Assembly: GCA_025558095.1 (NCBI GenBank)
Contig: JAIVFI010000019.1
Span: 372,001 to 436,000 of the forward strand
Length of the DNA stretch: 64,000 nt
DNA from: Hyaloraphidium curvatum
Taxonomy: Eukaryota; Monoblepharomycota; Hyaloraphidiomycetes; Hyaloraphidiales; Hyaloraphidiaceae
Reading direction: 5' to 3'
Below the pieces are notes generated by a model. It saw only the letters and a list, made by a program, of their open reading frames with translations. It made no database searches and was not told the DNA's origin. The position numbers and the translations under genes are program-made. Below are positions 20,115 to 35,528 of the stretch, piece after piece (within the stretch, counting starts at the first letter, position 1; each line of letters begins with the position of its first letter).

Positions 20115-21662
20115 TCACCCCCAGATATCGGCAATAACCTGGGTATCTGAGCGCTCGTCGACGTATTCGTACCACCCGTTCCCGACCTGCTTGGCCGTCT
20201 TGTCCGCCGCCCCGGCCTTTGCGGTCTGGGCCTCCTGCGGCGTGCGGTCCAGGTCCTCCTCGTCGTCGTCCACATCCCACTCCACGTCGGTCAGGACTGG
20301 AAGCGGCGGGCTCTTTGTAGACTCGGGCGACGCCGTCAGAGCCGTCATGGGCTGCATCCCGCGCCTCGCCAGTCCGCCGAGGATCCGTTGCGGTGCCGAA
20401 TGGACGGGCAACTCGGTCTCGCTGCGGGAGCGGGACCTCGCCTCGTCGTCGCTGCTTTTGTCCGACGAGACAGTGGCAAAGGCCGCCAGGACGACGCTGC
20501 GGAACCGCGACCGCTTGCGCTCATTGGCAATCAGGTTCGGGAGGCGGCCAGAGGCGTCGTCCTGCGCGGCGACGGAGAGCACGCCGGGCATGTGGTCGGC
20601 CGTGCGGGTGCGCTGGAGCTTCATCGGCCCGTCCGCTGCCGCACCGTCCGCAGAATGCGGCGAGGCAACGGCCTGCCTGTCGCCCAGCGCGGGGTCCTCG
20701 AGCAGCGACTGCACGGTCGGCTTTTCCGAAGCCGGCCGGACGGGATCGCTGTCTTCCTCGGCCTCGATGTTGACCTGCCGCAGCGCCTCCAGGTACGCCG
20801 GGGGGGTAAACTGCTGGATCCAAGGGTGGCGCATGGCCTCGTCCGCCGTCAGCCGCTCGGCTGGGTCGACGGCCAGCAGCTTCCTGCAAAAGTCCATGGC
20901 CTCGGGCGAGATCGAGTCCCACGTCTCCTCGGAAAAGTCAAAGGAGCCGCCCATGATCCGGCGGAAAAGGTCGGCCTGGTCCGAATACCCGGCGCACGGA
21001 TGCCGTCCCGTGAGGCACTGCACCGCGATCACGCCGAGCGAGAAGATGTCCACGGCCTTCGTGTACCCTTTGCCCTGCAGGATCTCCGGGGCCATGAAGA
21101 GCGGCGAGCCAATCTGGGTTTGAAGCAAGGTCCGCGGGTCGTTGATCTTGGCAATGCCGAAATCGAGGATCAGCAGCGGGGCATTGGGATCCTGGCTCCG
21201 GAACTGTAGGTTGCTCGTCTTCAGATCGCGGTGGACGATGCCCCGCGCGTGCAGGAAGCAGACTGCGTTTAGGACCGTCGCGAGGCAGACGGCGGCGTCC
21301 TCCTCCGTGAATGTCCGCAGCTCCACGATGCGGTCAAAGAGCGTGCCTCCTTCGGCAAGCTCAAAGACAAGAGCATAGGACCGCGACGTCTCGAACAGGT
21401 CGAGCAGCCTGATCACGTGGGGGTGACGCAGGCCCCTGAGGATGCCTGCCTCGGCCTCGACGACGCTGCTCGCGTCGCCTGCGCGCTTGGCAATCGTCTT
21501 GATGGCGCATTTCCGCCCCGTCGGTAGATGGATCGCCTCGCGAACCTTGCCCTGCGTCCCTCGGCCGAGGACGCGTACGATGCTGTACTCTCTCCATTTC
21601 TCTTCCTTCGGGACGCTCGCGCAGCGCTGGTCTCCCATCGCCGACTCCGTGCCGTGGTCCAA
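20115..21662 (-). CDS. Serine/threonine protein kinase, CAMK-like
   Basis: An intronless gene of 515 aa if the first ATG is used; a second ATG eight codons later (MGDQR) is equally plausible. The kinase domain spans about residues 26-290 with all catalytic elements: GRGTQGKV loop (33-40), Lys55 in CAIKTI, HRDLKTSN loop with catalytic Asp146, DFG at 167-169, and the GSPLFMAPE activation segment. VDIFSLGVIAVQCLTGRHP and RLTADEAMRHPWI fit the CAMK/CAMKL group. The C-terminal 220 residues are low complexity with Ser/Arg and acidic patches, without a recognisable calmodulin-binding or other domain. The substrate is unknown. Confidence 0.85.
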   Translation of the reverse strand: MDHGTESAMGDQRCASVPKEEKWREYSIVRVLGRGTQGKVREAIHLPTGRKCAIKTIAKRAGDASSVVEAEAGILRGLRHPHVIRLLDLFETSRSYALVFELAEGGTLFDRIVELRTFTEEDAAVCLATVLNAVCFLHARGIVHRDLKTSNLQFRSQDPNAPLLILDFGIAKINDPRTLLQTQIGSPLFMAPEILQGKGYTKAVDIFSLGVIAVQCLTGRHPCAGYSDQADLFRRIMGGSFDFSEETWDSISPEAMDFCRKLLAVDPAERLTADEAMRHPWIQQFTPPAYLEALRQVNIEAEEDSDPVRPASEKPTVQSLLEDPALGDRQAVASPHSADGAAADGPMKLQRTRTADHMPGVLSVAAQDDASGRLPNLIANERKRSRFRSVVLAAFATVSSDKSSDDEARSRSRSETELPVHSAPQRILGGLARRGMQPMTALTASPESTKSPPLPVLTDVEWDVDDDEEDLDRTPQEAQTAKAGAADKTAKQVGNGWYEYVDERSDTQVIADIWG

Positions 21663-21766
21663 AGTCGCGCGTGATCGCTGGCGGGCAAACTAATTCGGAC
21701 TCCGCCCAAGCTCCACATATGTTTGCTCGCAGCTGGGCGCGCTCTCGCGGCTCCTTTACGTCTATA

Positions 21767-29394: not shown

Positions 29395-29727
29395 CGCGAG
29401 GCGATGCCGCGTCCGCTGGCTTCACGGACAGAGGGCGCGGAGAGGCGATGTGGCGGCGGGTTCGCCAGAAGTCAGATTCTCAACCAATCATGCAATCTGG
29501 GGCCAATTTCCCAAGAAAGTCCGAAATTCAATCCGTCAATCAGTGTCGAATCCTAAGCGGCATTCAACAAAACCGAGCCGTGTGAAACGGCAACGCTGGC
29601 CCGGCCTGCACGGCTTGTCCGCGTAGCCTCGCAGTCTATTGCGTTTGCAAGCTTCTCCTTCGCACGACCCCGGCCCGCGGCCTGCTTCGCGCCCCGGACG
29701 TCCCGGATCCGGGGCATCTCCACCGCG
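29395..29727. promoter_or_regulatory. Divergent intergenic region between VMA13 and HTS1
   Basis: 333 bp between divergent start codons; AT-richer than its surroundings around 29480-29580. No ORF with recognisable content. Confidence 0.5.
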
Positions 29728-31644
29728 ATGGACTCGCGCGAGGACCTGAACGCGCGGATCACCGCGCAGGGCAACAAAGTCCGCCAGCTCAAGTCGCAAA
29801 AGGCGGAAAAGGCCGCGATCGACGCCGAGGTCGCCGCCCTGCTGGCCCTGAAGGCGGAGCTGCAGAAGCTGGACCTGGCGGCGAAGGCGCCGAACGGCGC
29901 CGCCAAGGAGGAGGACAACGATGAGGGCGGCTTCCAGCTCAAAACGCCGAAGGTGGCCATCGGTCTTGCAGTCTGCATGGGGACTGGATCCTGAGCTGCG
30001 TCCGGTTGCCAGGGGACCAAGGACTACCGCCCCGAGGAGATGGCCCTGCGCCAAAAGATCTTTGGCACCATCGTGAAGGTCTTCAAGCGCCACGGCGGCG
30101 TCACGATCGACACTCCCGTCTTTGAGCGGAGGGTGGGTGGACCGCCCTTCATGTCGGATCGGAGCTGATGGTCTTGGGGCAGGAAATCCTCGCGGGCAAG
30201 TACGGCGAGGACTCCAAGCTCATCTACGACCTCTCGGATCAGGGGGGCGAGCTCTGCTCGCTCCGCTACGACCTCACCGTGCCCTTTGCCCGCTTCCTCG
30301 CCATGAACCCGACCAGCTTCCAGAACATCCGCCGCTACCACATCGCAAAGGTGTACCGCCGGGACCAGCCCAGTGTGACCAAAGGCCGGATGAGGGAGTT
30401 TTTCCAGTGTGTCGGTATCTGTTGCCTTGGTATCCCGAGTGTCGCTCACTTTCTTCCCAGGACTTTGACATTGCCGGGAAGTACGACACGATGCTGCCGG
30501 ACTCTGAGGTCCTGACGATCGTGGTGGAGGCGCTGCGGGAGCTGGAGATTGGATCCTTCACCGTCAAGGTGAACCACCGCAAGATCCTCGACGGGATGTT
30601 CGAGGTGTGCGGCGTGCCGCCGGCAAAGTTCCGGACCATCAGCAGCGCAGTGGACAAACTCGACAAGGTGCGGCCATGCGGTCGCTGCCCTCGAGCGTCC
30701 CGCTCATTCGTTCATTGTCGCAGACGCCGTGGAACGAGGTGCGCAGGGAGATGACGGAGGAGAAGGGGCTTCCGGAGGACGTTGCGGACAAGATCGGCGT
30801 CTTTGTCCAGAAAAAGGGCGGGCCCGAACTCGTCCAGGAGCTCCTCGCCGACCCGCAGCTCAGCGCAAATGCGAGGGCAAGGGAGGGCATCGAGGAGATG
30901 GGTTTGCTGATGAAGTACCTTTCCATTTTCGGCGTGGTGGACCAAGTGGGTTCCGTTCGTGCAGCCCGCGTAACGGGGATTGATCGCTCCTTCCCTGTAA
31001 CGTGCGGCAGATATCCTTTGACCTTTCCCTGGCTCGCGGCCTCGATTACTACACCGGCCTCATCTTCGAGGCCATTTTCAACAACCCCCCGGCCGGAGCC
31101 GGCCACGACGAGGAAATCGTGGGCGTCGGATCGATTGCGGGAGGCGGCCGCTACGACGACCTCGTCGGCATGTTCTCGGGGGGCAAGAAGATCCCGTGCT
31201 GTGGGCTGTCGCTCGGCGTGGAGCGGATCTACTCCATCATGCTGCGCAAGGCGCAGCTGGACAAGATCAAGGCCAACGAGCTGCAGGTCCACGTGATCGG
31301 CGTCGGCGACGGCGTTTTGGAGGAGCGGATGAAGATATGCAGGGAGCTCTGGGACGCAGGGATCAACGTAAGTTTGGCCGGCCTTGCATCCGCAGAGCTC
31401 GCGCAAACTCTCTCCGCCCCAGGCCTCTTTCACTTACAAGGTAAAGCCGAAGCTCCAGGTGCAGTTTGACGCGTGCGACGACGAGCGGATTCCTCTGTCG
31501 GTGATTGTTGGGAAGAACGAGATCGAGAAGGGCGAGGTGAAGATCAAGGACATGACGGTGAAGGACCAAACGGGCTCGGGGGGCACGACGATACCCAGAT
31601 CGGACATGGTCAGCGAGATTCGGGCCCGTTTGGCTGCGAAATAG
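29728..31644 (+). CDS. HTS1: Histidyl-tRNA synthetase
   Basis: About 526 aa from exons 29728-29952, 30013-30132, 30183-30410, 30461-30667, 30724-30945, 31011-31367 and 31423-31644. The N-terminal helical WHEP-type domain (residues 1-70) is followed by the class II core: [19 protein letters not shown] (motif 1), [50 protein letters not shown] (motif 2), [10 protein letters not shown] (histidine A) and [13 protein letters not shown]. The anticodon-binding domain ends in EIRARLAAK. Splicing at 30133-30182 gives [17 protein letters not shown], which aligns without gaps to human HARS. No mitochondrial presequence is visible from this start. Confidence 0.95.
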
Positions 31645-31742
31645 ACTAGAAGAGAGGAGGAGGGAGGACAAAGTGATCGGGGAGCCCCCGCGGGACCACG
31701 GCACCGACACCCCTTTCCTTCTCCCCCCCCCCTCCAGCAGCA

Positions 31743-32435
31743 ATGCTTCGTGGTGGAGCCATGGAACGGAAACAGAGCGACGTCAACGCGGAGCGCGCAG
31801 AGAAGGACGCGGACGCGAGCAGCGTTACTGGAAGTGCCCACGGAAGCACCACGTCCACTTCGGTTCTTCGCGGGATCATTTCCCAATGGGGAGCGACGGC
31901 CGGTGTCGGCGTCGGGGTAGCCGGGTCATCCAACGCCCAGCTCATGGCGCGGCAGGTCCAGCTTCTGAGCAAGGAGAACACCCGACTTCTCCAGGAAGCG
32001 AACGCTGCAAAGGAAGAGGCGGTGGCTCAGGAACGCCGCGCTCAGACCCTGGAAGTCGATTACGACACCATGAGAGAGACGCTGGAGGCCGTGGAGGCGG
32101 AGCGCAACGCCTTGCAGGCCGAGCGCGACGCGCTGCGGATGGAGATGGACGCGGCCGCAAGGCGACTCGCTCGCTTGCTCAGCTCGCATTCGGATCCCCA
32201 CCGAGCATACAGAGGACACGAATGGGAGCCGGATTTCGCGAGATCGTCGTGCAATCTTTGCGACGAAGACTGGACGCTCTCGAGGAGGCGGCACCACTGT
32301 CGGTCATGCTCCAAGCTGGTTTGCGCGTCCTGCAGCTCCGCTCGCATTGCAGTCGGGCTGTTGGACGGCAAGATCGGCGCTCCGGATGGTGTGGTTGCGA
32401 GGGTCTGCGATTCCTGTGCCGGGGCGTCGCCCTGA
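31743..32435 (+). CDS. FYVE zinc-finger protein with coiled coil
   Basis: An intronless gene of 230 aa. A low-complexity N-terminus is followed by a coiled coil (about 65-145) rich in Glu, Ala and Arg. The C-terminal FYVE finger (about 160-228) has WEPD (WxxD), CNLC, RRRHHCRSCSKLVCASC (the basic PI3P-binding patch), and ARVCDSC, giving eight zinc cysteines. FYVE domains bind PI3P on endosomes. No further domain suggests a specific role. The ATG lies 98 bp after the HTS1 stop on the same strand; another in-frame ATG is six codons later. The stop is 24 bp from the convergent HMG-CoA reductase gene. Confidence 0.88.
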   Translation: MLRGGAMERKQSDVNAERAEKDADASSVTGSAHGSTTSTSVLRGIISQWGATAGVGVGVAGSSNAQLMARQVQLLSKENTRLLQEANAAKEEAVAQERRAQTLEVDYDTMRETLEAVEAERNALQAERDALRMEMDAAARRLARLLSSHSDPHRAYRGHEWEPDFARSSCNLCDEDWTLSRRRHHCRSCSKLVCASCSSARIAVGLLDGKIGAPDGVVARVCDSCAGASP

Positions 32436-32459: not shown

Positions 32460-35400
32460 CTAGAGGAGACTGTAGTGTTCTGCGACGGCGGATTTCGCTT
32501 TGAAATAAGCCTTGCGCGCATCACTCGAGAGCATATCGACAGCCGGTCCGTCCGCGAGAAACTCCGCGAGGGTGTTCTGCGCGTCCGGAGCGATTTTGCC
32601 GTCAGGCGTGAAGATCGACTGGGGATCATTCCCGCGCGCCGCCATCCACAGCACAAAGCTATTCACGGCCCTGCCTCCGGAAAGGGATCCGTCGAGCGCG
32701 AAACCGCCCGATGCGACCCCGCGGTCGCGTTCGAGCCTGGCAGCGTCATGGGCTCGGGTCACGAGGTCTCCCACGCTTTCCCCCAGCTTCCTGCAATAGT
32801 CCCAGGTCGCCTCGTCGGTGGTGGCTTCGTCCAGCGCGGTCGCATCCAGCAAGAGGAACAGCGTCATTTGGAAGCGCTTCCTGTGCACGGCAAAGAACTC
32901 CTCGTAGTCCGCAGCTGAAGAGCAATCGTGGGCGAGGGGAGCGCATACGATGGCCGACAGGACGCGGCGCTGTTCCGCGAGGATCTGCGAGACCAATTCG
33001 GGCTGGCCCACGCGCTCAGTCACAATCAGCTGGAAGACTTGCAGCATCGCAAGCAAGAGGGGGAATCCGACTTGGATCATCTGCTTCTTCTCTTCGGAAA
33101 GCCCCTCCGCGGGGAATGCCTCCGCCGGCGAGGCCGACAGATCCGGCGGAAACAGCCAGTCCACATGGTAGTCCTGCGCGGGATGCTTGGCGCTGCCACG
33201 TCTCTGAGCTCGGACTTCGGTCACGTAGCTGTCGACGCTCGGGGGAACGAGGTCGTGCATGGCCGCGAGTCGAACCGAGATGTCCGCGATGCTCGCAGCG
33301 CGAGCGACGCGGGGTTGGGACAAAGCCCGCGGCCTCGACATGGAGTCGCCTTTCGGCCTTTCCCGCAGCCGGGGCTTGGAGCTGGCAAAAAGATGTGTGT
33401 CGACGAAGGCAAAGGTTTCGGCAGGAACGGCTGCCATCAGGCGACGTGCCAAGACGTTGATGACGATTGAAATGAGCTTCAGGCGGCGGATATCCACCCG
33501 GTTGTGGCGCGTGTAGTCCCCGGGGAGCTGCAACTTCGTGACGAGCTTCATCAGCTCCGACAGCCAGGCGTAGGTCCGCTGGCCAAAGAGCACCGAAGCC
33601 AGCGAGGTCCGCTCCGTGTTGGCCATGTACTCCAAGTAGTTCGGCGAGCTCGTCCAAGTGTCGAAGGCGATGTTGAACGTGACGCGGGTCTCGACCCCAG
33701 AAAGAGGATTCTCGTTTCCAGTTACTTCGTCCTCGTAGTAGAGCATCGAGGGCGGGAGGGCGGTAGATGGGCCGTCCACCGGGGAGCTGCGTTGCCGCAC
33801 GATGCCGAGGATCTCGTGTGCCCGCAGATACTGCTGGGCGGCGTCCACGGTCATGCGGTTGGTTTCGATCATGTAGGCCGTGACCTCCGCAACGGCGTGG
33901 GGCGGGGCGCCCGCGGCAATGGCAATGTTGCGCGAGTGCAGCGACAGGTGGCCCCTGGCAAAGCGCGCAAGTCAGCGCCGGCACTGTTCGCAGGGCGAGA
34001 GAAACTCGCCGTTGTATGCCCTCGGTGGTCAGAGCACGCAGGGCGGCAAAGTTCTGCGCCAGGCCGACGCAGACCAGTATGCGAGAGAGTTGCTTCGCGT
34101 CCGGATTGCCCGCGATGTGCAGGTTGTAGCCGTACGTGGGATGAGTCTTGAGCACGCCGCCCTTTGTCCCAACAGCCAGGGGCAGCTCAAGCTCTCCCAT
34201 GAAAACGTCCTCGCCAGCTTCGTTCTTCTCGATCCAGTACTTGGTGAGCGCCTGGTACCGGCCCGATCGGCAGGCATACGCATGAGATGCGGCCTCGATC
34301 GCCCTCCAATCCTGACCAAGGGCGATGCAAACCGAGTCGATGCCGTTCTGGCGGCCGACGGGAACGATCAGGTTTCTCACGAGGGTAACTAACCCGGACG
34401 AGACGCACCATGATGCCCTTGTTGTGCGTGGTGGCCCGGTAAATGTCGTCGTTTGCCCAGCTGTTGGCCTCGATGATCCGTTCCGCCACCTGCGCCCCTT
34501 CGAACGACTTGTATCGCAGTTGAGCGACGGGAATCGCGAATCGGGCGCGGGAAAGGCGGTCCGTGCACAGGTTGGATACGATCCGCAGCCCGATGCGGCA
34601 GCGGAGCATCTCCTGCAGGAGTGGCGAGGTGCCCTCGGCCACCGTGCTGGCACAGTTTGCTCCCATGGCATCGCACACGTCAATCGAGAGCTGGACGACG
34701 AGCCACTCCTTCGAAAACTCCGAGCCCTTCGGTGACGGCGTGGTCCGCGGCACCCTGCGCACCTCCATGCCCACCACGCCGCCTCCACGATTGACCATGC
34801 TCTGGCAGTACTGGTTGGCGAGGGCAATGATGTTGGTTCTCTCCGCGTTCAGCTGCAGCAGGAGACGTCTCCGTTAGCCAAACACCGTAGCCTCCACAGT
34901 CAGTCGCTGTTGGCCACCTTGGCGATCGCCCTCTCCATCTGGGAATCGGGAATGTCGTGCAGCTGAATCTGGGCAAAAATGACGTTGCGGTCGGGTCCCG
35001 TGGCCGTGAATCCGCGGGGCGTCCCAAAGGTCGACATGGTTTTAGCGGCGCCGGAGACGGCAGCGATGACCGAGGGCTCCTCAACGGCCATCGGGATCGC
35101 CAGGGAGCGCCCATTGATCGTGAAGTTCAACGCCAGGCCCAGTGGAAGGCCCATGCAGCCGTAAGCATTCTCGATCATGTTGTTGGCGATCTTGAGATGT
35201 CGTTCGTTCCGGCGGACGTCGTACGTCCGTCAACCCGGTGTCTCGACCACGGAACGTCGGAGCCCACCTCGGGATCCAAGCCGTCAATTGGAAACTCGTC
35301 CTCGTCGCCATGGAACACGCTCGAGTCCTCCGTTGCCGCGTCAATGTCCTCCAGGCCGGAGGTGCTGCCGTCTTCCGGTCGTTTCCGCGGGAAGAGGTCG

Positions 35401-35528
35401 GGATACACCAGGCGGATCTGCCGCCGCCTCTCGGGCAGCGTCTTGCGATAGAACCCGCTCCAGATGTCATGATGCGCCGCCGATGGCCGCGCCGACGCGG
35501 AGGCGACGCCCTTCGTTCCGTTTTCCAT
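32460..35528 (-). CDS. Class II HMG-CoA reductase with long C-terminal extension
   Basis: About 936 aa from exons 35528-35268, 35190-34918, 34852-34409, 34347-34010 and 33954-32460. Residues 1-490 match class II (bacterial/archaeal-type) reductases: SGFYRKTLPERRRQI, MIENAYGCMGLPLGLALNFTINGR, VEEPSVIAA (catalytic Glu), MVNRGGG, NKGIMNGID (catalytic Lys), GQDWRAIEAASHAYA (catalytic Asp) and TEGIQRGHLSLHSRNIA (catalytic His). It lacks the membrane domain of eukaryotic class I enzymes. The reaction is HMG-CoA to mevalonate, or the reverse. About 445 further residues follow in the last, uninterrupted exon, with no motif I recognise. The last intron uses a GC donor (34009) and is needed to restore EGIQRGHLSLH. 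Probably a transferred gene, since intronised. Confidence 0.9.

Follow-up and report, generated by a model that had tools for sequence, protein, structure and literature searches.

In the 64,000-nucleotide stretch of Hyaloraphidium curvatum DNA analysed here (the window), a gene on the minus strand (window 35528-32460; five exons, one frame of 936 residues) encodes a class II HMG-CoA reductase that continues into a long C-terminal half. We lean towards reading the product as a genuine fusion, in which a mevalonate-forming class II reductase outside sterol feedback would carry a helical tail with an anchoring, assembling or restraining role. A class II reductase in a fungus is an already-reported kind of enzyme, such genes having been described in 2016 in some fungi, sponges and Capsaspora, beside class I (PMC4784904, available part), contrary to the accessible portion of PMC13370337, which confines class II to bacteria and archaea. 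The undescribed part is the extra C-terminal half: we found no description of this extension in the open-licence literature, which is not proof of its absence.

Splice sites were predicted from the DNA (Table 1), and every junction rebuilds a stretch conserved in class II enzymes (PE/IANNMIEN, AIAK/LNAERT, KGIM/NGID and GIQR/GHLSLH, in the order of the introns). For intron 4 we adopted the GC-AG reading, since it brings back GIQRGHLSLH. The gene's position and strand, its four introns and its long tail all agree with the preliminary description, and the four motifs quoted there (VEEPSV, KGIMNGI, GQDWRAIEA and GHLSLHSRNIA) are all found once the exons are joined. Its argument against contamination also holds, since this intron-bearing gene lies on a 720-kb contig amid ordinary eukaryotic genes.

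Table 1. Features of the class II reductase gene in the window, with predicted exons and introns
Feature	Window position	Strand	Description
Exon 1	35268..35528	-	Residues 1-87; start ATG; class II N-terminal motif GFYRKTLPERR; acidic insert
Intron 1	35191..35267	-	77 nt, GT-AG
Exon 2	34918..35190	-	Residues 88-178; VEEPSV with catalytic Glu125 at 35077-35079
Intron 2	34853..34917	-	65 nt, GT-AG
Exon 3	34409..34852	-	Residues 179-326; catalytic Lys323 at 34418-34420
Cofactor helix CQSMVNR	34787-34807	-	Residues 194-200, in exon 3
Intron 3	34348..34408	-	61 nt, GT-AG
Exon 4	34010..34347	-	Residues 327-439, last codon split; catalytic Asp339 at 34309-34311
Intron 4	33955..34009	-	55 nt, best read as GC-AG, donor GCGAGT
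Exon 5	32460..33954	-	Remainder of reductase and entire tail, through stop codon
Flap region	33810..33950	-	Residues 441-487, catalytic His441; from 1qax alignment, flap as defined in the available part of PMC10070635
Tail	32463..33800	-	Residues 491-936; no recognised family; helical in low-confidence models
Hydrophobic stretch	33021..33077	-	Residues 732-750; Kyte-Doolittle mean 1.97

The assembly comprises 31.9 Mb in 55 contigs, and the window has 63% GC. Among the neighbouring frames are one for a GATase-IGPS-PRAI protein and a FolB-HPPK frame with a pterin-binding frame after it, arrangements that we take to be of fungal type, and no isoprenoid gene was recognised among the 20 neighbouring frames scanned. 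At window 29557-31466 a WHEP-TRS domain frame adjoins a histidyl-tRNA synthetase domain frame, which suggests a histidyl-tRNA synthetase with a WHEP domain, a form more typical of animals than of fungi. A coiled-coil FYVE zinc finger protein is encoded on the plus strand (window 31680-32435), convergent with the reductase gene, and the two stop codons lie about 25 bases apart.

A class II HMG-CoA reductase is present in full at residues 78-487. Residues 78-445 score 299 bits with Pfam HMG-CoA_red. Of the NCBIfam models, TIGR00532 gives 287 bits, with a cut-off of 260, and the class I model TIGR00533 gives 27 bits; the earlier assignment to class II is thereby borne out, and a placement among class I enzymes is not what the family score gives. 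The best solved relative is the P. mevalonii reductase (1qax, E 3e-89), which has the same catalytic domain, four catalytic residues and flap histidine. Glu125, Lys323, Asp339 and His441 align with P. mevalonii Glu83, Lys267, Asp283 and His381, and their equivalents are invariant in all 80 aligned bacterial relatives, the set obtained after a motif filter removed nine of 89. Asp283 we take to be a catalytic residue. Roles for the other P. mevalonii catalytic residues are given in the accessible part of PMC10070635. The alignment to 1qax spans the flap as far as residue 482, the flap helices being modelled with low confidence, and residues 24-42, in exon 1, are alignable to the N-termini of some bacterial relatives. 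Judging from these residues, the first half has all that catalysis by a class II reductase requires, and its ancestry is most likely bacterial. It differs from the P. mevalonii enzyme in its 446 added residues, an insert near residues 45-80, a cofactor helix that leans towards NADPH and a eukaryotic, intron-bearing gene.

Two cofactor-helix motifs have been published, Dx(V/L)xxxL for NADH and (H/Y)xSxxxR for NADPH (PMC13370337, available part). The helix CQSMVNR has the Ser and Arg of the NADPH motif (two of three positions) and lacks both terminal residues of the NADH motif, Asp and Leu; with Cys at the first motif position, it matches neither motif in full. This misfit does not disqualify the protein as a class II enzyme, because 39 of the 80 aligned relatives also fit neither motif (31 have the NADH motif and 10 the NADPH motif). 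Going by these positions, the enzyme probably prefers NADPH or accepts both cofactors. The name of the top family model, TIGR00532, includes the word "degradative" and would suggest catabolism, the NAD-dependent oxidation of mevalonate to HMG-CoA, but this label conveys little, as the listed plasmid relatives bear it in groups ranging from alphaproteobacteria to archaea; moreover, the NADH determinants of the P. mevalonii enzyme, Asp146, Leu148 and Leu152 (PMC10070635, available part), are replaced by Cys194, Ser196 and Arg200, and we consider the catabolic direction unlikely. We favour a reductase that would convert HMG-CoA to mevalonate beyond sterol feedback, because the class II gene has no sterol-sensing membrane domain. 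The two classes are about 10^4-fold apart in their inhibition by statins (PMC10070635, available part), and by class membership this enzyme should be weakly inhibited.

The genome also holds a class I gene, as a search for one revealed, on contig C6 and with a sterol-sensing domain (a frame fragment matches PF12349 with 55 bits); with this gene present at another site, the class II gene is an extra one. Both encode enzymes of the same reaction and the same Pfam family, but the C6 gene has a sterol-sensing domain in front and a class I catalytic domain, which the class II gene does not have. A third, intron-bearing reductase (G000:C28:25193-26302, in L010) is class I-type by family score, with 272 bits for TIGR00533 against 28 for TIGR00532, the former under that model's cut-off of 442, the sequence being a 331-residue, hand-spliced partial one. 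On reading its frames we noticed no membrane segment upstream, and the product may be read as soluble.

Past the reductase, the last exon runs on in frame for 446 residues (491-936), where a stop-free, one-exon continuation of about 445 had been described. Runs of 446 stop-free codons arose by chance in four of 3000 and two of 3000 Markov sequences. GC at the third codon position is 0.73-0.85 along the tail, and over all three positions the reductase and tail halves have similar GC (0.61/0.47/0.81 and 0.64/0.46/0.78, respectively). By a codon-usage score, built on the codon frequencies of eight other window frames with Pfam matches (one of them weak), the tail frame is the best of six in seven of seven windows, with 0.18-0.37 bits per codon versus 0.28-0.43 in reductase exons 2-4. 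Because the frame, GC and codon-usage results agree, the tail is protein-coding and in frame with the reductase; it is not a chance open frame. Since the gene model was deduced from the DNA, it might be wrong, with two adjacent genes, or with a hidden intron that gives the reductase a short end of its own; however, no stop codon separates the halves and the coding signal is unbroken in one frame, and we hold such an error to be very improbable.

The C-terminal half had been described as free of recognisable motifs, and this description stands, as no match was obtained in Pfam, NCBIfam or PDB sequences. The searches, which differ widely in sensitivity, were carried to E 5 for Pfam and NCBIfam (two sub-stretches also being compared with Pfam), to E 10 for PDB sequences and to E 1 for plasmids, again with no match to the tail. 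Short exact-peptide patterns, which reach close relatives only, were taken from the full protein and then from the tail, and confirmed none in viral and GTDB contigs. The rest of the H. curvatum genome gave no tail relative: the sole other match (E 0.099) we take to be due to chance, overlapping the start of a protein-kinase frame (window 20118-21689) in another reading frame. The best tail match in six bacterial genomes had E 0.8, and the tail is absent at E 1 from open reading frames of at least 60 residues at 89 bacterial and archaeal class II loci. Searched with the full protein, 195 Myxococcota genomes gave, among the matches listed, reductase matches only, none of them past residue 510, although the cut at E 1e-20 makes this hardly a test of the tail.

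AlphaFold without an alignment returned a tail that is nearly all helix, with mean pLDDT 39 and 50 in two models, values at which the predicted helical fold is uncertain; the generic helical bundles returned by Foldseek + VIA on the pLDDT-50 model were set aside as evidence. The most hydrophobic 19-residue stretch of the entire protein (residues 732-750) falls in the tail. The absence of relatives from all searches made, together with a reductase half that is also on a long branch, would suit a lineage-specific, poorly constrained extension of little function. Yet 446 codons have stayed open with a codon usage near that of the reductase exons, and these low-confidence models place hydrophobic helices in the tail, instead of low-complexity sequence, and an extension of that kind seems to us improbable.

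A GTDB scan with the full protein as query confirmed nothing, whereas a scan with an eight-sequence alignment confirmed at least 589 relatives, of which the best 80 (38-47% identity) were retained; the top rows are one Myxococcales, one Chloroflexota and one Chromatiales genome. Fused domains are tolerated at the same point in 14 of these best 80 of at least 589, in keeping with a fusion here: a mevalonate-kinase-like (GHMP) domain in 13 (L025, L027, L033, L034, L038, L043, L055, L066, L070, L073, L077, L088 and L096) and a prenyl synthase, squalene/phytoene synthase and epimerase tail in one. The kinase tails, confirmed by Pfam in four cases and recognised in the rest by length, motif and reading (one ends at a contig end), span Pseudomonadota, Planctomycetota and Calditrichota, together with one actinomycete. 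A metagenome-assembled Myxococcota contig (JANQQN010000400.1; L067:1017-5753) has a single open frame of 1579 residues with class II HMG-CoA reductase, polyprenyl synthetase, squalene/phytoene synthase and NAD-dependent epimerase/3-beta-HSD-like domains, apparently four isoprenoid-related enzymes in one protein.

These bacterial tails raise the possibility that the H. curvatum protein is bifunctional, its tail being another enzyme of the isoprenoid pathway that has changed too far to be recognised. Like the bacterial reductase-mevalonate kinase fusions (L034, L096, L077 and L088), the protein has a domain behind the flap of a class II enzyme, but theirs is a recognisable GHMP kinase and the window tail is not, giving no Pfam match to a GHMP kinase domain. 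With hhalign (positive control, probability 100), the whole-tail score was equalled by shuffled sequences in 14 of 40 cases for mevalonate kinase, 18 of 40 for a duplicated reductase, six of 40 for terpene synthase and, in two weak tests whose templates are single sequences from L067, 24 of 40 for prenyl synthase and 13 of 40 for squalene/phytoene synthase; all these candidates were rejected, and the probability was below 1% for every enzyme family. The C-terminal half of the tail did exceed 29 of 30 shuffles against the terpene synthase profile (probability 0.8%), and it is tempting to see in GDLVTRAHD a loose likeness to what we take to be the terpene synthase NSE metal-binding motif, but this stretch lies outside the terpene synthase alignment. 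A hidden second enzyme is, in our judgement, an unlikely explanation. Fusion as such is familiar from enterococcal MvaE, in which a class II reductase is joined to a thiolase; there the partner is N-terminal and a known enzyme, and here it is C-terminal.

At least 144 of the 195 Myxococcota genomes contain a match to the protein at E 1e-20, and no class II relative was confirmed in viral contigs. In a 65-row tree the H. curvatum enzyme forms a lineage of its own, with a branch length of 2.31 changes per column. A weak join with the Myxococcota sequence of L067 (82), obtained from fewer rows, was judged a likely long-branch effect and was not seen again with more rows. Neither a Myxococcota grouping (p-AU 0.47) nor one with the kinase-tailed clade (p-AU 0.08) was rejected, and with so long a branch neither lineage is singled out as donor. 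A single prokaryotic transfer into the opisthokont ancestor was proposed for class II genes (PMC4784904, available part), with which the long branch is compatible. The H. curvatum gene resembles the sponge, Capsaspora and fungal genes of that study in its place beside class I in an opisthokont and in its proposed prokaryotic origin, as far as the descriptions go; the available part of PMC4784904 mentions no extension. The tail may have been gained after transfer from bacteria, as had been suggested; its absence from all 89 bacterial and archaeal relatives fits such a gain.

Once a class II enzyme has bound substrate and cofactor, its three-helix C-terminal flap shuts over the active site and delivers the catalytic histidine; for the cofactor to be exchanged, the flap takes up another configuration (PMC10070635, available part). 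Because the tail starts just a few residues behind the flap, it must move with the flap or hold it, and for this reason we think it likelier to anchor, assemble or restrain the enzyme than to catalyse a second reaction. Under the fusion reading preferred here, a helix-rich, non-catalytic tail, attached directly after the mobile flap with its catalytic histidine, would anchor or oligomerise the enzyme, or would restrain the flap and thereby set activity. A more specific version, in which the tail would be an undescribed eukaryotic regulatory domain that grips the flap and provides a statin-tolerant, separately controlled supply of mevalonate, strikes us as rather doubtful.

The mevalonate pathway is controlled at HMG-CoA reductase, which is also the target of statins. 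Three different reductases in one fungus, one of them bacterial-type with a domain borne on its flap, would, if true, point to a further mode of control over this step and to a natural tolerance to statins. The case also bears on the 2016 proposal that the opisthokont ancestor received a class II gene: an extension common to sponges or Capsaspora would date the fusion, and otherwise it would be a local invention.
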